Of a stretch of 64,000 nucleotides of DNA, positions 976 to 62,495 are shown one piece after another. Each line of letters starts with the position of its first letter. The first letter of the stretch is position 1. The position numbers were made by a program, and so were the translations under genes. The DNA is from Crossaster papposus (Eukaryota > Echinodermata > Asteroidea > Velatida > Solasteridae). The notes beneath the pieces were generated by a model. The model was not told the DNA's origin. It did not search any database and saw only the letters and a list, made by a program, of their open reading frames with translations. The DNA is taken from the NCBI GenBank assembly GCA_037893245.1, contig JBAIAA010000808.1:1-64000 (forward strand). The letters are read 5' to 3'.

Positions 976-3099
976 TTTTTGACTGTAAGACTGGAAATTT
1001 CTAATGCACACTTCTTCCCTTTACATATTTAACTCGAGGGCTTGTTCCGACACCAGGTGTCTATTTCTGTGGAGTTTGCGCCGACGGTGCGGATTTTGGG
1101 TTAGAAAACCACCAATTTAAGCTGTTATTTACGGTACATACAAGCCTGAAAAAAGTTATCATTTTTGACATCATTTTTGACTGTAAGGCTGGAAATTTCT
1201 AATGCACACTTCTTTATCTTTACATATTTAACTCGAGGGCTTGTTCCGACATCCGGTGTCTATTTCTGTGGAGTTTGCGCCGACGGTGCGGATTTTGGGT
1301 TAGAAAACCACTCATTTAAGCTGTTTTTTACGGTACATACAAGACTGAAAATATTTATCATTTTTGACATCATTTTTGACTGTAAGACTGGAAATTTCTA
1401 ATGCACAATTCTTTCTCTTTACATATTGAACTCGAGGGCTTGTTCCGACATCAGGTTTCTATTTCTGTGGAGTTTGCGCCGACGGTGGGAATTTTGGGTT
1501 AGAAAACCACTAATTTAAGCTGTTATTTACGGTACATACAAGCCTGAAAACATTTATCATTTTTGACATCATTTTTGACTGTAAGACGGAAAATTTCTAA
1601 TGCACACTTCTTTCTCTTTACATATTTAACTCTAGGGCTTGTTCCGACATCAGGTGTCTATTTCTGTGGAGTTTGCGCCGACGGTGCGGATTTTGGGTTA
1701 GAAAACCACTAATTTAAGCTGTTATTTACAGTACATACAAGCCTGAAATTATCATTTTTGACATCATTTTTGACTGTAAGACTGAAAATTTCTAATGCAC
1801 ACTTCTTTCTCGTTACATATTTAACTCGAGGGCTTGTTCCGACATCAGGTGTCTATTTCTGTGGAGTTTGCGCCGACGGTGCGGATTTTGGGTTAGAAAA
1901 CCACTAATTTAAGCTGTTATTTACGGTACATACAAGCCTGAAAATATTTATCATTTTTGACATCATTTTTGACTGTAAGACTGAAAATTTCTAATGCACA
2001 CTTCTTTCCCTCTACATATTTAACTCGAGGGCTTGTTCCGACATCAGGTGTCTATTTCTGTGGAGTTTGCGCCAATGGTGCGAATTTTGGGTTAGAAAAC
2101 CACTAATTTAAGCTGTTATTTACGGTACATACAAGCCTGAAAAAATTTATCATTTTTGACTGTAAGACTAGAAATTTCTAATGCACACTTCTTTCCCTCT
2201 ACATATTTAACTCGAGGGCTTGTTCCGACATCAGGTGTCTATTTCTGTGGAGTTTGCGCCGACGGTGCGGATTTTGGGTTAGAAAACCACTAATTTAAGC
2301 CGTTATTTACGGTACATACAAGCCTGAAAAATTTATCATTTTTGACTGTAAGACTGGAAATTTCTAATGCACACTTCTTCCCTTTACATATTTAACTCGA
2401 GGGCTTGTTCCGACACCAGGTGTCTATTTCTGTGGAGTTTGCGCCGACGGTGCGGATTTTGGGTTAGAAAACCACCAATTTAAGCTGTTATTTACGGTAC
2501 ATACAAGCCTGAAAAAAGTTATCATTTTTGACATCATTTTTGACTGTAAGGCTGGAAATTTCTAATGCACACTTCTTTATCTTTACATATTTAACTCGAG
2601 GGCTTGTTCCGACATCAGGTGTCTATTTCTGTGGAGTTTGCGCCGACGGTGGGAATTTTGGGTTAGAAAACCACTAATTTAAGCTGTTATTTACGGTACA
2701 TACAAGCCTGAAAACATTTATCATTTTTGACATCATTTTTGACTGTAAGACGGGAAATTTCTAATGCACACTTCTTTCTCTTTACATATTTAACTCTAGG
2801 GCTTGTTCCGACATCAGGTGTCTATTTCTGTGGAGTTTGCGCCGACGGTGAGGATTTTGGGTTAGAAAACCACTAATTTAAGCTGTTATTTACAATACAT
2901 ACAAGCCTGAAAAAAATTATAATTTTTGACTGTAAGACTGGAAATTTCTAATGCATACTTCTTTCTCTTTACATATTTAACTCGAGGGCTTGTTCCGACA
3001 CCAGGTGTCTATTTCTGTGGAGTTTGCGCCGACGGTGCGGATTTTGGGTTAGAAAACCACTAATTTAAGCTGTTATTTACAGTACATACAAGCCTGAAA

Positions 3100-6000
3100 T
3101 TATCATTTTTGACATCATTTTTGACTGTAAGACTGGAAATTTCTAATGCACACTTCTTTCTCTTTACATATTTAACTCGAGGGCTTGTTCCGACATCAGG
3201 TGTCTATTTCTGTGGAGTTTGCGCCGACGGTGGGAATTTTGGGTTAGAAAACCACTAATTTAAGCTGTTATTTACGGTACATACAAGCCTGAAAAAATTT
3301 ATCATTTTTGACATCATTTTTGACTGTAAGACTGGAAATGTCTAATGCACACTTCTTTCCCTTTACATATTTAACTCGAGGGCTTGTTCCGACACCAGGT
3401 GTCTATTTCTGTGGAGTTTGCGCCGATGGTGCGAATTTTGGGTTAGAAAACCACTAATTTAAGCTGTTATTTACGGTACGTACAAGCCTGAAATTGTCAT
3501 TTTTGACATCATTTTTGACTGTAAGACTGAACATTTCTAATGCACACTTCTTTCCCTCTACATATTTAACTCGAGGGCTTGTTTCGACATCAGGTGTCTA
3601 TTTTGTGGAGTTTGCGCCGACGGTGCGGATTTTGGGTTAGAAAAACACTAATTTAAGCTGTTATTTACGGTACATACAAGCCTAAAATTATCATTTTTGA
3701 CATCATTTTTGACTGTAAGACTGGAAATTTCTAATGCACACTTCTTTCTCTTTACATATTTAACTCGAGGGCTTGTTCCGACATCAGGTGTCTATTTCTG
3801 TGGAGTTTGCGCCGACGGTGGTATTTTGGGTTAGAAAACCACCAATTTAAGCTGTTATTTACGGTACATACAAGCCTGAAATTATCATTTTTGACATCAT
3901 TTTTGACTGTAAGACTGGAAATTTCTAATGCACACTTCTTTCCCTTGACAAATTGAACTCGAGGGCTTGTTCCGACATCAGGTGTCTATTTCTGTGGAGT
4001 TTGCGCCGACGGTGCGGATTTTGGTTTAGAAAACCACTAATTTAAGCTGTTATTTACGGTACATACAAGCCTGAAAAAATGTATCATTTTTGACATCATT
4101 TTTGACTGTAAGACTGGAAATTTCTAATGCACACTTCTGTCTCTTTATACATATTTAAGTCGAGGGCTTGTTCCGACATCAGGTGTCTATTTCTGTGGAG
4201 TTTGCGCCGACGGTGCGGATTTTGGGTTATAAAACCACTAATTTAAGCTGTTATTTACGGTACATACAAGCCTAAAATTATCATTTTTGACATCATTTTT
4301 GACTGTAAGACTGGAAATTTCTAATGCACACTTCTTTCCCTTTACAAATTTAACTCCAGGGCTTGTTCCGACATCAGGTGTCTATTTCTGTGGAGTTTGC
4401 GCCGACGGTGCGGATTTTGGTTTAGAAAACCACTAATTTAAGCTGTTATTTACAGTACATACAAGCCTGAAAAAATGTATCATTTTTGACATCATTTTTG
4501 ACTGTAAGACTGGACATTTCTAATGCACACTTCTTTCTCTTTATACATATTTAACTCGAGGGCTTGTTCCGACATCAGGTGTCTATTTCTGTGGAGTTTG
4601 CGCCGACGGTGCGGATTTTGGTTTAGAAAACCACTAATTTAAGCTGTTATTTACGGTACATACAAGCCTGAAATTATCATTTTTGACATCATTTTTGACT
4701 GTAAGACTGGACATTTCTAATGCACACTTCTTTCTCTTTACATATTTAACTCGAGGGCTTGTTCCGACATCAGGTGTCTATTTCTGTGGAGTTTGCGCCG
4801 ACGGTGCGGATTTTGGGTTAGAAAACCACTAATTTAAGCTGTTATTTACGGTACATACAAGCCTGAAATTATCATTTTCGACATCATTTTTGACTGTAAG
4901 ACTGGAAATTTCTAATGCACACTTATTTCCCTTTACAAATTTAACTCGAAGGCTTGTTCCGACATCAGGTGTCTATTTCTGTGGAGTTTGCGCCGACGGT
5001 GCGGATTTTGGTTTAGAAAACCACTAATTTAAGCTGTTATTTACGGTACATACAAGCCTGAAAATATTTATCATTTTTGACATCATTTTTGACTGTAAGA
5101 CTGGAAATTTCTAATGCACAATTCTTTCTCTTTACATATTGAACTCGAGGGCTTGTTCCGACATCAGGTGTCTATTTCTGTGGAGTTTGCGCCGACGGTG
5201 TGAATTTTGGGTTAGAAAACCACTAATTTAAGCTGTTATTTACGGTACATACAAGCCTGAAAACATTTATCATTTTTGACATCATTTTTGACTGTAAGAC
5301 GGGAAATTTATAATGCACACTTCTTTCTCTTTACATATTTAACTCTAGGGCTTGTTCCGACATCAGGTGTCTATTTCTGTGGAGTTTGCGCCGACGGTGA
5401 GGATTTTGGGTTAGAAAACCACTAATCTAAGCTGTTATTTACAGTACATACAAGCCTGAAAAAAATTATCATTTTTGACTGTAATACTGGAAATTTCTAA
5501 TGCATACTTCTTTCTCTTTACATATTTAACTCGAGGGCTTGTTCCGACATCAGGTGTCTATTTCTGTGGAGTTTGCGCCGACGGTGGGAATTTTGGGTTA
5601 GAAAACCACTAATTTAAGCTGTTATTTACGGTACATACAAGCCTGAAAAAATTTATCATTTTTGACATCATTTTTGACTGTAAGACTGGAAATGTCTAAT
5701 GCACACTTCTTTCCCTTTACATATTTAACTCGAGGGCTTGTTCCGACACCAGGTGTCTATTTCTGTGGAGTTTGCGCCGATGGTGCGAATTTTGGGTTAG
5801 AAAACCACTAATTTAAGCTGTTATTTACGGTACATACAAGCCTGAAATTGTCATTTTTGACATCATTTTTGACTGTAAGACTGAACATTTCTAATGCACA
5901 CTTCTTTCCCTCTACATATTTAACTCGAGGGCTTGTTTCGACATCAGGTGTCTATTTTGTGGAGTTTGCGCCGACGGTGCGGATTTTGGGTTAGAAAACC

Positions 6001-40459: not shown

Positions 40460-40935
40460 CATCCTGAATCCATCAGTATCCATTCCCTATTTTGCAGGAG
40501 ATTTCGGTGGATTTAGGATACCAATCCTAAATCCACCAAAGTCCCCCAGTTTGTTCAATATGATATTGAACAAACTGGGAGACTTTGATGGATTCAGGAT
40601 TGTAAGCCTAGCAATACTATACGAGATTTTGCAATACTACACTATTTTGCAGAACTGCAAAATGGATTACGTACAGTATACATGTACATGTACATCTAAT
40701 GTGTGGACTCCTATGGAGAAACACTACAATGCAACCTACAACCTGCATTGTATCCTTATCCATCCGAACTCTGGTGGATTTTGTATGGATTTATCAGGAT
40801 ATCTCTAGAATTTATACTGGTAGATTCTGATGGACTCAGGACAACAGCAGTTTTTGCTTGACAAACTTGTTGGACTTTGGTGGATTCAGGACACTTTCTA
40901 GTAAAAGCAGTCACTAAGGGGTACATGTAGCTAAT
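40460..40935. repeat. Dispersed repeat, family B copy 2
   Basis: Aligns in patches with 36,714-36,964. TTTGATGGATTCAGGATTGT followed by AAGCCTAGCAATA at 40,584 corresponds to 36,793, and GGTGGATTCAGGACACTTTC then TAGTAAAAGCAGTCACTAAG near 40,880 corresponds to 36,905. This copy contains two strong hairpins at 40,506-40,602. Confidence 0.65.
40506..40602. other. Two abutting hairpins
   Basis: First: GGTGGATTTAGGAT, loop ACCA, ATCCTAAATCCACC (40,506-40,537). Second: a ~40-bp arm pair, 40,522-40,561 and 40,563-40,602, with a single central base and a perfect 17-bp core CCCAGTTTGTTCAATAT. The right arm of the first hairpin is also part of the left arm of the second, so the two folds exclude each other. 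Confidence 0.85.
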
Positions 40936-45154: not shown

Positions 45155-45305
45155 TAGTGAGGTGGATTAAGGACAAAAAACACGAAGATCGTGACACGGT
45201 GGACAAAAGCACCAATTTTTTTTTAAAGACTCCTATGGGTATGTATATTAATAAAATCCCATGCTCCCAAAAAATTGCAATGACCTTGACCTAATTATGA
45301 CGCAA
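45155..45305 (+). repeat. Left inverted end of the RT element
   Basis: Best-matching part is the outer ~75 bp. The inner half aligns with small gaps (CATGCTCC..AAAAAATT, CCTTGA, AATTATGACG). Partner: 49,265-49,416. Confidence 0.8.
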
Positions 45306-45497
45306 TATATTCAAAATGGCCGCCATTTCCTTAAAACGGCATGTTTTTAGTTATATAATGCCGAGGCAAGTGATTTTAGTAGCGAATTATATGTATCAAA
45401 GGCCAAGGAATCGCATGGCAACGTTTGTGTTGCGCTGAAACAAACAGTTTCATCATTTTTGTATTAAATTTGTCTATATTAGCATATGATGGTATAA

Positions 45498-46795
45498 AAT
45501 ACATCATCATCACCGTGGGAAAATCAGTGGTTTGTATTAAAAATCGTCTCTTCCGGTCAATCCAAAATACCATCAATGGACCTGCTGCCTAAAGTCCACA
45601 AGTTGAAAGAACCACCTTCTCCCCATAATGAGAAATTACTTAAAGGCAGGCCCATTATAACTGCACATAGCTGGATCACCTCCCCTGTATCCAAAACATT
45701 AGGCTTCTACCTAAACATCTTACTGTCCAGATTTCAAGATAATTTTTTTGAAAAGGACATTCCTTGGCCAATCATCACCAACTCCCTTCAATTAATAAAT
45801 TCACTTGATTCTCTGGAAGTATCTTACGACGATGATATCTCATTTATTTCTTTTGATTTTGAGAGCCTATACACAAATATCACACCTCACGATATCCAAG
45901 AAACACTTTTCAAGATAAGTGCTGCCTGTGAATACCCTCACGAATACTATTCCTATTTTTCTAAACTACATAACTTCACCAGTGATTTCATTTTTCAATC
46001 GGTAAACACCTCTTCAAACAAACTAAAGGAGTTCAAATGGGGAGCTATCATTCCGCACAACTCGCTAACCTTGTATTAGCTTATAGAGAATTCCTGTTCT
46101 GGACCGCACATAGATCCCCCAATGTACTGCTCTTCGTTAGATACATCGACGACGGCTTAATTATTTTCCGCAACGACCCCACTTCCTCATATCAAGACAT
46201 AATCAAAACGCTAGCGGGCCTCTATCCGAAATCCATTCCTGTCAACTTCTCTGTGAACAACAAAACTATGATTTTTCTGGATCTTACCTTGTCTATCAAC
46301 TATTTCACTCTAACGAATAATAACATCCAATACCGTGTCTTCCAAAAAGCCTTTCATAAGTTCACCTATGTCAATTACAAATCTAATCATAACCCCTGTA
46401 TCTTCAGAGGCATCATCAAAGGAGAATGCCATCGCTACAAGACTCACAGTGCAGACGAGAATGAATATAATCACATACTCCAACTTTTCCAACTCCGACT
46501 CAAAAGGTGCAGCTACCCTAATAGATTAATTCGAGAAAATTCCCTAGATTACAAAGACGAAGCCTGCACCAGATTACACACTTTTAAAACGCCGAAACGC
46601 GCAATTCTTTGCAAAATTCCCTTCAACAAAGCCAGCTACAACGTCAGACAAGTTAAACGAATCCTTAATAAATACACTGGTCTACTAGGCCCCAACTACG
46701 GCGTTAACATCTCTATCACCAACAACCCTAAGCTAAAACAGTTGTTTTGTACCAGCCGCACACTGCACAGGAAGATTGCTAACTTCAAAGTATAA
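45498..46795 (+). pseudogene. Penelope-like reverse transcriptase, N-terminally short
   Basis: The frame is open from 45,498, with the first ATG at 45,576. The first part (45,576-46,079) has LLPKVHKLK at its start, GRPIITAHSW (RT1-2 region, residues 24-33) and motif A FDFESLYTNI (residues 93-102). The second part (46,037-46,795, another frame) has motif B MGSYHSAQLANL, motif C FVRYIDDGLIIF with the two catalytic aspartates, FLDLTLS, then FRGIIKGECHRYK and a basic C-terminus ending in NFKV. LPKxHK, FDxxSLYTN and RYIDD are typical of Penelope-like RTs. The two overlapping frames show it is disrupted, and the N-terminal domain is short or missing. No GIY-YIG block follows. Of the PLE types, the endonuclease-lacking ones (Athena/Coprina-like) fit best by absence, but a truncated canonical element is possible. 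Confidence 0.8.
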
Positions 46796-46857
46796 TATTA
46801 ATATAAAAACAAGAATATAATAAAACAAAACAAATCCTCCCACTATCACAAGTTTGT

Positions 46858-48010
46858 GACGCGCAATTCCTTCTCAAAAATATCCCCCGAGAGCCACTGG
46901 TATTGGACGCGTAATTTCTTCTTAATAATATCATCCAAGAGCCACTGGTTTGTAGACGCGTAATTCCTTCTTAAAAATATCCACCAAGAGTCACAGGTTT
47001 ATGGACGCGTAATTCCTTCTTTATAATTTACTACAAAAGCCACTGGTTGGTAGATACGTAATTCCTTCTTAAAAATACCCTCAGACAGCCACAGGTTTGT
47101 GGACGCGTAATTCCTTCTTAGAAATATCCTCCAAGAACCACAGGTTGGTGGACGCGTGGTTCCCTCTTTAAAATATCCTCAGACAGCCACAGGTTTGTGG
47201 ACGCGTAATTCCTTCTTAAAAATATCCTTCAAAAGCCACATGTTTGTGGACGCGTAATTCCTTCTTAAAAATATCCTTCAAAAGCCACTGGTTAGTGGAC
47301 GCGTAATTCCTTCTTATAAATATTCTTCAAGAGCCACAGGTTTGTGGACGCGTAATTCCTTCTTAAAAATATCCTTCAAAAGCCACATGTTTGTGGACGC
47401 GTAATTCCTTCTTAAAAATATTCTTCAAGAGCCACTGGTTAGTGGACGCGTAATTCCTTCTTATAAATATTCTTCAAGAGCCACAGGTTTGTGGACGCGT
47501 AATTCCTTCTTAAAAATATTCTTCAAGAGCCCCTGGTTAGTGGACGCGTAATTCCTTCTTATAAATATTCTTCAAGAACCACAGGTTTGTGGACGCGTAA
47601 TTTCCTCTTAAAAATATATTCCAAGAGCCACAGGTTTGTGGACGCGTAATTCCTTCTTAAAAATATCCTCCGAGAACCACAAGTCTGTAGACGCGTGTTT
47701 CCTTATAACATTATTATATCCTCCAAGAACCACAGGTTGGTGGACGCGTGGTTCCCTGTTTAAAATATCCTCAGACAGCCACAGGTTTGTGGACGCGTAA
47801 TTCCTTCTTAAAAATATCCTTCAAAAGCCACATGTTTGTGGACGCGTAATTCCTTCTTAAAAATATTCTTCAAGAGCCACAGGTTTGTGGACGCGTAATT
47901 TCCTCTTAAAAATATATTCCAAGAGCCACAGGTTTGTGGACGCGTAATTCCTTCTTAAAAATATCCTCCGAGAACCACAAGTCTGCAGACGCGTGTTTCC
48001 TTATAACATT
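46858..48010 (+). repeat. 49-bp minisatellite, ~24 copies, 3' of the RT
   Basis: The unit has GACGCGTAATTCCTTCTTAA, AAATATCCTCCAAGAG and CCACAGGTTTGTG; starts at 46,955, 47,004, 47,053 and 47,102 give the 49-bp period. Each unit contains an MluI palindrome ACGCGT and a small hairpin CCACA-GGTT-TGTGG. Two levels of internal duplication are visible: the GGTTGGTGGACGCGTGGTTC variant recurs 590 bp apart (~47,135 and ~47,725), and the AGACGCGTGTTTCCTTATAA variant recurs ~297 bp apart (~47,691 and 47,988). It begins ~60 bp after the RT stop and lies wholly inside the element. Confidence 0.95.
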
Positions 48011-49264
48011 ATTTCGCCGACAGCCATTGCTGTACAGGCATGTATGCCTATATTAAAAAGATAACTTTTTACTCAATTAAATAACAACTATCAACTATAT
48101 AACGGGCAGCTGTTCACTATGTGAGACGTGGTGTTTAAGCTCTACCCATTTTAAGTTAAGTTTTTAAGTTACGCATACATATCGGTTAATGTTTTCATAA
48201 TTTTCCGATAATTTACCACACGCCCTTATACATAACAATTTTTCTTTAGTATGAAGTCTAAATTACACGATATGTTTCTTATACAATTCATTATTAAAGA
48301 TTGATTTATGTCAATTAAAATACACATTGGTTATACACTCTGTATAATTTTAATTCATTTCTTTATTTTTGAAACTCATCTTTTGAGTTTTTAAGGTAAT
48401 AAGTGTATCATTACAGGCTCGAGAAATATCTAAACCATATCTGCTAACTTCCAAATTGAACACAATTGTTTATATCCTTAAACTATTTAATTCATATTTC
48501 TAATTTATTATGTTAAATATAATATTAAAAAAAAATGCGAATTAATACCGTAGTTCTTTTTAGAGAAACAGAATTCCTTCACCTAGGCCTAATTGATTTA
48601 AAATATAGTTGTATCGAAATGTAATAAATTATAACCATAGAACTGTCCGTACTTCGCGTGCATTTTGAGTTCTTACTGTTTCCTCTATGTGTGATCTCTG
48701 TGTCTTTGAACTACCTATCCCCTCGTGCCGGGTTTGACATTACTGGATCTTTTATAACCGGTCGTCAAGTCCACCAACAGGCACATTCCCGAACGGTTTT
48801 TAAATCTCACTTTCTCCCACGGCGACTGTCTGAACGTCTGGTGTATCGTGAGGTACGCTAGGGACTGTAGTTGGACTTTAGGTTCACTATATAACAATAC
48901 ATTGTGTTAATGTGTTATTGTTTTGGTTGATAGTTATTGTTTATTATATCATAATGACATCATGGTATCTTGAAGATCAGTGCCACGGTAATTATACTGT
49001 TACCATTTTGAACACAAAAGAAATAGCATTTTGGTGAAAAAACGGCAATAAAATTTTTTTTTTTTTCAAATTGTGTGTTATTTGTGTAGTATTGACGATG
49101 ATGACGTCATATTTACATCAATATACATGTAGTCACCATAAAGGATATTAATTTTTTACAAACTAATACCACCCTCATTGAATTCCTTGACCTCAGAAAC
49201 ATAATTTTGGCATGTAGAAATCCCACCATGGCATTTGCGTTTGCTTTATTACATAACAAGAGGT
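48011..49264. other. AT-rich 3' part of the RT element
   Basis: No gene recognised. Includes a poly-T tract near 49,053-49,068 and CRE-like TGACGTCA at 49,102-49,109. The 60-67-codon frames around 48,650-48,900 have no recognisable content. Confidence 0.5.
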
Positions 49265-49416
49265 TATGACGTCATAATGACGTAATTCAAGGTTAACAAT
49301 TCTCAGATTTTTTGGAGCATGACTTTTTTGAAATCTATGGATCAAACTGATACTTTGGTGAAAAAATGGTGCTTTTGTCCACCGTGTAACGATTTTTTCC
49401 TTAATCCACCTCACTA
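49265..49416 (-). repeat. Right inverted end of the RT element
   Basis: Reverse complement of the left end. Contains a second CRE-like TGACGTCA (49,267-49,274). Ends in CCACCTCACTA immediately before the TAATACTAACCGG of the tandem duplication. Confidence 0.8.
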
Positions 49417-49685
49417 TAATACTAACCGGTGTAGCGGTTCGCGTTATTTGTTTTCAGGAGCTAGGTGGTGCATGATGTGGGCGCCATATGCAAAGCGCGC
49501 GCAGGCATTGTGGGCTTTTACGAAATGGGGCTAGAGTTACAGGCTACGTACGGGTTATGCTTGGCTTGGCTCGGACTTGGCCGGCTCGCGAATATATTTT
49601 TCCAAAACCTAACTGGCACTGTGGCAGATTTCATGAATTATTCAGTAGTTGCATTGATCACTGTACAACACTTAGGTTCTAGGTC

Positions 49686-60075: not shown

Positions 60076-62495
60076 CATTAATCTGCCCTGGATTCCTGTG
60101 ACTGGTCTGTGGTTTTCAATACTGATAATCCTAATGTTTCCTTTAATACATTTATGAATATTTTTATTAATTTGTATGAAAAAAATATCCCTCTTATTAG
60201 GACTAATCATTCCAATAGAAAAACCCAACCTCGGTCGAAATGGATTTTGCCAGCTTTGCTGAAATCTATCAATTATAAAAATAGACTTTATCGTAAATAT
60301 CTTTCTTGTCCTAGTTATCTTAATCGTTTAAAGTACACCCGATATAAAAACTAACTCACAACTATACTGCGTTCTGCTAAAGAAAATTATTTTACTCGGC
60401 AATTTGATAAAGAAAAAAACAACATTAAAAACACTTGGAAAATAATTAACTCAGTCATCTGAAGTTCCGAGTATTAAGATTAATGACCTGTGTACGAATG
60501 ATCCCCTTTTAATTGCAGAGCATTATAATGACTACTTTGTTAATATTGGTTCCAAACTTGCCAATCAAATCCCTCCTTGTGATTCGAATTACCATGATTA
60601 CCTATATAATCCCAATCCCTTTTCTATTTTCTTTGATCCAGTAACCGAACATGAACTATATACTATTGTTTTTAATTTAACTAATAAGCAAAGTTCTGGT
60701 CATGATACGATTACTAGTACTGTTATCAAAGCTGTTTTTCTTGCCATTTCCAAGCCTCTTGCTTTCATTATGAATTTGTCATTAAGTACAGGTATTGTTC
60801 CCGATTCCATGAAAATTGCTAAAGTTGTTCCCGTTTAAAAAAAAGGTGATTCCCATTTAGTTAATAATTATAGACCTATTTCCATTCTGACAACCTTTTC
60901 TACAATTCTTGAACGTATTATTTACGTTCGCACGCCTCGGTTTTTAACCAAACATAATATTTTATCTGATTTGCAGTATGGGTTTAGGGAGAACCATTCA
61001 ACATCTCATGCTATTTTACAATTGATAAATACTATTATTACTGGTCATGAACAGTCTTCTCATACTTTGGAAATTTTTCTGGACCTTTCCAAGGCATTCG
61101 ATACAATAGACCATGATATACTTTTGGCTAAACTTTCCTTTTATGGAATTAGAGGGATTGCCTTGGAGTGGTTCAGAAATTATCTCACTTATCGTAAACA
61201 ATTTGTACTTTTTAATGATAACCAGTCTTCACCTAAAGAGTTGGTTTGTGGAGTTCCTCAGGGATCAATTTTGGGACCACTTCTTTTTTCAATATATATT
61301 AACGATTTTGAGAAATCTTCTAGTACCTTGTCATTTATTTTATTTGCAGATGACTCGAATTTATTTTACTCGCATAACAATTTGGGTACACTGGTTAACG
61401 TCATTAATACAGAACTCATTGGTGTTTCTAAATGGATTAAAGACAACAAATTATCCCTCAACATTGATAAAACATGTTTTATGTTGTTTAGCAATACAGC
61501 CAGTTCAATTCCTACTGATGTTTTGTACGATAATTATCCTGTTAATCAAACCAACTGTACTAAATTTCTTGGTCTTTTTATTGATGAACAATTATCATGG
61601 AAATGTCATGTAAATTATCTATGTAAATTAATCTCAAGAAATATTGGTATTATTAACAAATTAAAATATTTTTTTCCCTCTAATATTTTGTATAATATTT
61701 ATAATGCGTTAATTTTGCCTTATATCTCCTACGGTATTCTGGCCTGGGGCAACACAAGCTCTTGTCTTTCTAATAGAATTTTGGTTTTGCAGAAAAGGGC
61801 ATTGCGTGTTATTGACCGTGTGGAATTTAGAGCTCATTCTAATCCATTGTTTTTTAATCACAATACTCTTAAAATTAATGATATGTATTCACTCCAGCTA
61901 GGAATGTTTATGCATCAGCTTGTAGCTCATAAATTACCTAATTCATTTGAACGAATGTTTGTGACTAATGCAGTTATTTATCAATATTATACCAGACAGT
62001 TTAAAGATTTCCATGTTCCTTTTATACGTACTGCTCTTGCAAAGAAATTTGTCATGTATCAGGGTACAACATATTGGAATTCACTAAGTCAAACTCTAAG
62101 AAGTATTCGTAGTCGTCTTTTATTTAAGAAAAAAATTAAACTTCTGCTTTTGGAAAAATATCGTTCTTAACATTGATTATTATAATTAGCTGCGATACAT
62201 GTAGATTCATTGTACGTTCCCCTGTGTAGGTTACATTGTACAATTGTATTTGTTATGTCCTGTTTGTGTTGGTCCTTGTCATTTTATGTGCAACATAAGT
62301 TTACTTCTGTGTAGTTAAAATGGAACCCGTATAATATCTATTTATCATGACATAATTACTTTCTTTCTACACATCAAGGGCCTTTCCACTTGACAAGCTT
62401 GCTTTTTGGAGAAGCCCACCGCTTAATCGTATACGTTTATTTATATCGTCTGTAAATCATTTGTTTTTGATTAAGTGGAAATAAATATGATATGG
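60076..62495 (+). mobile_element. 5'-truncated CR1/Jockey-superfamily LINE
   Basis: It begins inside the region upstream of the RT; the endonuclease is absent, as usual for 5'-truncated LINE copies. Order: linker fragments (MVFNTDNPNVSFNTFMNIF, NYFTRQFDKEKNNIKNTW), the segment EHYNDYFVNIGSKLANQIP, FSIFFDPVTEHELYTIVF and KQSSGHDTIT, NNYRPISILTTF, then the open RT frame. Before that frame I count one in-frame stop near 60,352, one frame change near 60,465 and one stop near 60,836, so the copy is dead. After the stop at 62,170 comes a ~320-bp 3' UTR ending near AAATAAATATGATATGG. FLDLSKAFDT, GVPQGSILGPLLF and LFADDSNLFYS are those of the CR1/Jockey group; exact clade not determined. Confidence 0.85.
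60971..62170 (+). CDS. LINE reverse transcriptase, open C-terminal 399 codons
   Basis: The longest open frame in the window. Residues 36-45 FLDLSKAFDT hold the first catalytic aspartate. Residues 94-106 GVPQGSILGPLLF are the fingers/palm block. Residues 125-128 FADD hold the catalytic pair, and 154-168 KWIKDNKLSLNIDKT is RT block 6. The C-terminal domain has LVLQKRALRVI and ends with the typical LFKKKIKLLLLEKY before the stop. The frame is already open upstream of this ATG (from ~60,839), so the ATG is not a real start. RT activity of the fragment is possible in sequence terms, but the element lacks its endonuclease and upstream frame. Confidence 0.85.
   Translation: MQYGFRENHSTSHAILQLINTIITGHEQSSHTLEIFLDLSKAFDTIDHDILLAKLSFYGIRGIALEWFRNYLTYRKQFVLFNDNQSSPKELVCGVPQGSILGPLLFSIYINDFEKSSSTLSFILFADDSNLFYSHNNLGTLVNVINTELIGVSKWIKDNKLSLNIDKTCFMLFSNTASSIPTDVLYDNYPVNQTNCTKFLGLFIDEQLSWKCHVNYLCKLISRNIGIINKLKYFFPSNILYNIYNALILPYISYGILAWGNTSSCLSNRILVLQKRALRVIDRVEFRAHSNPLFFNHNTLKINDMYSLQLGMFMHQLVAHKLPNSFERMFVTNAVIYQYYTRQFKDFHVPFIRTALAKKFVMYQGTTYWNSLSQTLRSIRSRLLFKKKIKLLLLEKYRS

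Follow-up and report, generated by a model that had tools for sequence, protein, structure and literature searches.

A TIR DNA transposon carrying a candidate Penelope-like retroelement piece and its 49-bp minisatellite in Crossaster papposus

The window analysed here, 64,000 nucleotides of Crossaster papposus DNA (assembly GCA_037893245.1, contig JBAIAA010000808.1), contains a unit in which inverted ends enclose a reverse transcriptase (RT) and a minisatellite (Table 1). A preliminary description had proposed a single mobile unit at 45155-49416, and these coordinates proved exact, with a 3-bp duplication (taa/taa) at the flanks. The RT occupies two frames in different phases, and the minisatellite array starts 51 bp 3' of the RT stop. 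The first 19 bases of the two ends are identical, and the match is patchy beyond (113 of 185 aligned columns identical, gaps included), with an outer block at 45150-45178/49393-49421 (29 nt, 93%) and an inner block at 45185-45273/49308-49396 (89 nt, 72%). The ~145-bp inverted ends described earlier are therefore present as an imperfect repeat, perfect over the first 19 bp only.

Table 1. Layout of the unit and its flanks (positions in the window)
Feature	Position	Strand	Evidence
Left target-site duplication, taa	45152-45154		Identical to 49417-49419
Left backbone of TIR transposon, 388 bp	45155-45542	+	98% common to RT-less L060 and L061, up to 45542 exactly
Cargo: putative 5'-truncated PLE-type retroelement	45543-48899	+	Missing from L060 and L061; left part 94% identical to longer C61 copy
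First RT frame (LPKVHK... SLYTNI)	45576-46079	+	4 bp deleted near 45990 in comparison with other copies, breaking the frame
Second RT frame, RYIDD and part of thumb	46037-46795	+	Open reading frame
49-bp minisatellite, 23.6 units	46847-48002	+	21-nt box AATTCCTTCTTAAAAATATCC in each unit; also 3' of C61 RT
Cargo 3' tail, probable 3' end of retroelement	48003-48899	+	L066 right end; C352 row
Right backbone, 517 bp, with right terminal repeat	48900-49416	+	97.5% common to L060 and L061
Right target-site duplication, taa	49417-49419		Read at flank

The ends of the unit mobilise a DNA transposon. Terminal inverted repeats (TIRs) common to the copies and a target duplication of fixed length, the two marks of TIR cut-and-paste transposition, were both found: 3-bp duplications flank the element at all 20 distinct sites, 18 with the RT and two without it (L046 repeats the L045 site and was counted once, while L052 and L058 were left out). 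The two RT-less elements, L060 (2,674 bp) and L061 (3,300 bp), were read end to end and have the same ends and 3-bp duplications. They have only positions 1-388 (left) and 3746-4262 (right, 517 bp) in common with the unit in the window, which identifies the interior, 45543-48899, as cargo. The earlier reading of the inverted ends as terminal repeats (pLTRs) of a Penelope-like element (PLE) is rejected on the basis of these RT-less copies together with the fixed duplications. By eye, and for two frames by comparison with Pfam, no transposase-like frame was noticed in L007, L008, L060, L061, L065 and L066 or the parts of them that were read, and we infer that the unit is non-autonomous and that its transposase comes from elsewhere. 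Its termini read TAGTG...CACTA, which we take to be the reverse of those of CACTA elements, and 3-bp duplications that do not follow the TWA rule presumably argue against a typical PIF/Harbinger element. Termini and duplication, set beside the named superfamilies Zator, Academ, PIF/Harbinger and CMC, did not give the transposon a firm assignment. An inner segment of ~2 kb in the RT-less elements lies in opposite orientation in L060 and L061 versus L007, L008 and L065, as if it were invertible.

Across the genome (1.02 Gb searched), the parts of the unit recur together. All 40 full-length places scored for the left end (out of 321 candidates) are at least 98% identical, and the RT is found at at least 40 places, 39 of them at 96-100% and one at 87%. 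The preliminary description had named ends that never flank an RT as a refutation of its reading; this RT lies behind 19 of the 40 scored left ends, and for the other 21 there is none among the matches listed, so that the ends often stand without it. Conversely, the left end is in place at all 30 RT loci compared (L009-L038, the 30 top-ranking of the 40 places). The exact junction between end and RT occurs 37 times in the genome and its reversed control not at all; the terminal 19-mer occurs 306 times exactly (control 0). Counted by eye, 94 of the 100 places listed for this 19-mer pair off face to face, giving 47 pairs with spacings of 1.7-7.2 kb, and at least 12 of these pairs enclose the RT, 11 by the exact junction and one (C17:2142655) by RT match. 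The order of parts in the window (left end, RT, array, tail, right end) holds in 18 of 20 further loci, one of which, L047, was read in part. The exceptions are L052, in which very little is left of the array and only a minor part of the tail, and L058, where the RT stretch is matched at 87% and the ends are missing. Contigs C279 and C414 carry the same insertion with the same flanks, with two copies 4.6 kb apart on C279, reflecting either a haplotype or a duplication.

The origin of the cargo is seen from a longer copy on contig C61, in which an N-terminal region, the RT and the minisatellite follow one another and the N-terminal part begins upstream, beyond the cargo junction; the 2.27 kb of upstream sequence that was read contained no TIR. 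The cargo begins a short way 5' of the LPKVHK motif and is thus missing the N-terminal half of the RT with its DKN motif, a half that is present both at C61 and in a relative on contig C428 (an 824-aa open frame with 58% protein identity to the cargo RT). Three identical 824-aa frames and a fourth, broken one lie head to tail on one strand at C428 343604-377713, the identical frames spaced 10.8-11.0 kb. The N-terminal region yielded only 17 candidates on six contigs, versus the 37 exact cargo junctions. At the other side, the cargo ends at 48899/48900, and another TIR element, L066, contains an inverted, shorter copy of unit positions 2822-3747 that ends at nearly the same base (about 3745-3747 of the unit). 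The match between C61 and the cargo stops at 48080; the last 819 bp of the cargo probably belong to the retroelement as well, judging from two indirect links, C352, where an N-terminal piece, array and tail stand in one row, and C92 (the tail search gave 514 candidates, of which 40 were scored). Judged by these alignments, a C61-type retroelement is the donor of the cargo. The unit is a composite, as had been considered earlier, by nesting of a retroelement piece in a DNA transposon and not through the meeting of unrelated neighbours. Beside the long retroelement copy on C61, on the minus strand of L062 at 416-799, lies a frame with a GPANCGKT Walker-A motif, which presumably resembles a parvovirus NS1 helicase.

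Taken together, the unit is very probably a non-autonomous TIR transposon that carries a 5'-truncated, endonuclease-less PLE-type piece and its native array as passengers. A transposase from elsewhere would move the TIR unit and leave the 3-bp target duplications; a 5'-truncated, endonuclease-less PLE-type copy would have landed in, or been copied into, an ancestor of the transposon, the mode of entry being our inference; and the RT piece, array and tail would then have multiplied together. At fixed points the two backbones give way to interiors that differ between elements; neither an uninterrupted ancestral transposon site nor a target duplication around the retroelement insertion was seen.

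Alternatively, the RT piece could have been gained by gap repair with template switching, in the manner of Pack-TIR elements, rather than by PLE retrotransposition. One survey describes gap filling in animals (PMC8277862), and the interiors of other members of the family contain other pieces: in L065 and L061 a frame that by eye resembles a PLE thumb, and in L066 one reminiscent of leucine-rich repeats, although neither frame was supported by Pfam. However, two TIR elements contain the retroelement in opposite orientation, with left truncations at 389 versus 2822 of the unit and approximately the same right end, a pattern expected of 5'-truncated retrotransposition. We consider gap repair a possible route of entry, though a somewhat doubtful one.

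The minisatellite is very probably native to the donor retroelement lineage, 3' of its RT. At C61, the copy without a TIR in the stretch read, the array again comes after the RT. Tandem repeats 3' of the C428 RT contain the 21-nt box with 20/21 and 19/21 identities, versus a maximum of 17 in 200 shuffles. Since silent sites between the cargo RT and the C428 family are saturated (pS 0.80, with pN 0.26), recurrence of the box behind this second RT family points to a native part of the retroelement. The suggestion that the minisatellite marks a distinct lineage thus survives in part: the lineage is that of the donor retroelement and not of the whole unit. A variant of the box, present 272 times genome-wide (control 0), is spaced at 49 bp on C96 and C245. 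On C96 an RT at 1075463-1077628 has arrays on both sides; being 99% identical to C428, this locus does not count as a third, independent family that has the box. In a further relative, on C130, the box is absent (best 14/21, where shuffles reach 17). Stable hairpins in the array were likewise rejected, since it folds no better than shuffled sequence (z -0.61).

Copies differ in their number of units: the 19 element rows have between 8 and 22 boxes each. This variation could suit a private expansion of the minisatellite inside the transposon, foreign to the donor retroelement, as could the 49-bp box arrays at C191 and C245, contigs with no RT among the matches listed. Such an expansion is nevertheless very improbable: it is contradicted by C61, where no TIR was found and the array still stands 3' of the RT, and the near-identical boxes behind the C428 RT, well above the shuffled best, speak against it too. 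If the array is native to the retroelement, it might even be a working cis-acting module of an endonuclease-less PLE lineage: the RT, a telomerase-like enzyme, would recognise the box near the 3' side of its RNA and deposit or extend the repeats by reiterative copying; the array would then have spread in the DNA transposon, with many recognition sites that could be templates in trans. This would explain both the conservation of the box across families with saturated silent sites and the variable unit number, although we regard it as a rather unlikely, speculative reading.

Classification of the RT relies on weak similarity and on motifs. The undivided 407-aa frame of L056 (P0005) matches RVT_1 with an E value of 1.2e-5 and 25.6 bits, just below the cut-off of 29.6, and this weak match identifies the protein as an RT; the same frame matches group II RT at E 1.1e-5, far below the cut-off. 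The full-length P0003 has no family match in either library, P0001 and P0002 have none, and searches of the PDB matched no RT or TERT chain and gave no convincing relative of solved structure. The motifs DKN, LPKVHK, SLYTNI and YIDD are those that we take to mark a PLE, and the RT is best read as PLE-type on that ground. The lack of a GIY-YIG domain noted in the preliminary description, a mark of endonuclease-deficient PLEs (Athena, Coprina type), is borne out by the one full-length relative, the C428-type P0003 (824 aa), which has no Pfam match at E <=10. The combination of a C-terminal GIY-YIG domain and its own pLTRs, by which a canonical Penelope would be recognised, was not found. No hammerhead was found, nor did any copy that was read show a 3'-terminal telomeric array, the AACCCTA at the end of the C61 match being short. 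TTAGGG tracts are abundant in the genome (39,951 overlapping 36-mer matches), many of those listed lying inside contigs (C7, C11 and others); no link of these tracts to the TIR or retroelement copies was shown.

Within the unit, the RT is a passenger of the DNA transposon that moves it. Six of 30 RT copies, including the one in the window, have in common the 4-bp deletion near 45990, at six sites; another pair of indels is common to seven of the 30, at seven sites, and a third pair to L019, L020, L022 and L024, at four sites. Broken frames shared among so many sites show that broken copies kept spreading. The 86 changes among the 30 copies (which count one insertion three times, L016-L018) comprise 59 non-synonymous, 22 synonymous and five stop changes, or 69/26/6%, versus 70-74/21-27/3-4% expected without selection. 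The shared broken frames and the neutral change rule out the RT as the motor of the unit. An open RT frame is kept in at least six of the 30 copies (five by frame comparison, plus L023), and RT supplied from such copies may act in trans. That the unit is instead a new kind of retroelement with inverted termini, moved by its own active RT, is extremely improbable: although ends and RT co-occur in many copies, some with open frames, and PLEs bounded by inverted pLTRs are on record (PMC3846280), the same ends with other interiors and the same duplications contradict an RT-driven unit, the fixed 3-bp duplications speak against it, and so do the broken-frame lineages at six and seven sites, the neutral RT change, and an RT without the N-terminal half seen at C61 and C428.

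Mariner MITEs make a 2-bp TA duplication. One of them, MER6, carries a V-SINE domain (PMC6887750), and like the unit described here it is a TIR DNA transposon that has multiplied a retroelement fragment; it differs in that its domain is a short SINE, whereas the cargo here is 3.4 kb long and RT-bearing, with a minisatellite and 3-bp duplications. An animal survey of Pack-TIR elements describes internal non-TE sequences and gives multicopy cases as rare, 3/23 in frogs (PMC8277862). The likeness lies in TIR ends around foreign sequence, in multiple copies with distinct target duplications; in contrast, the cargo here is a piece of a transposable element, not a non-TE sequence, and is present in at least 37 copies. 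Athena and other endonuclease-deficient PLEs, and Terminons with tandem arrays, have been described (PMC3846280, PMC6431247). Compared with those, the RT without a detected GIY-YIG domain resembles that of Athena-type elements, and the head-to-tail copies on C428 recall Terminon arrays, whereas no hammerhead or telomeric 3' array was seen here, the C428 protein is a single frame of ~820 aa, and a 49-bp array stands 3' of the RT. Penelope elements with inverted pLTRs also have inverted repeats around a PLE RT, but they make 8-10-bp duplications or none (PMC3846280), unlike the fixed 3-bp duplication here and the ends common to elements without RT. None of the titles and abstract openings searched mentioned a PLE with a minisatellite 3' of it, or a TIR element enclosing a PLE, although such cases may still have been described. 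Next to these systems the mechanism, a DNA transposon with a passenger like MER6/V-SINE, is ordinary, and the cargo is unusual.

A retroelement lineage whose long copies are few has, on this evidence, been multiplied to at least 37 copies by a DNA transposon, and such a cargo would mislead a repeat annotator into reporting a new PLE family with inverted ends. The repeated, conserved box 3' of an endonuclease-less RT is a candidate for what such an RT recognises, testable in vitro.

Elsewhere in the window, a satellite of ~199 bp per unit fills ~32 kb (positions 1-32022), with 148.7 units counted up to 29205 and 90% matches. A hairpin at 40520-40605, matched on both strands by plant microRNA families below their gathering scores, is probably a short inverted repeat. 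At 60971-62170 lies a 399-aa frame of a LINE-type RT, recognised by eye from its FADD motif.
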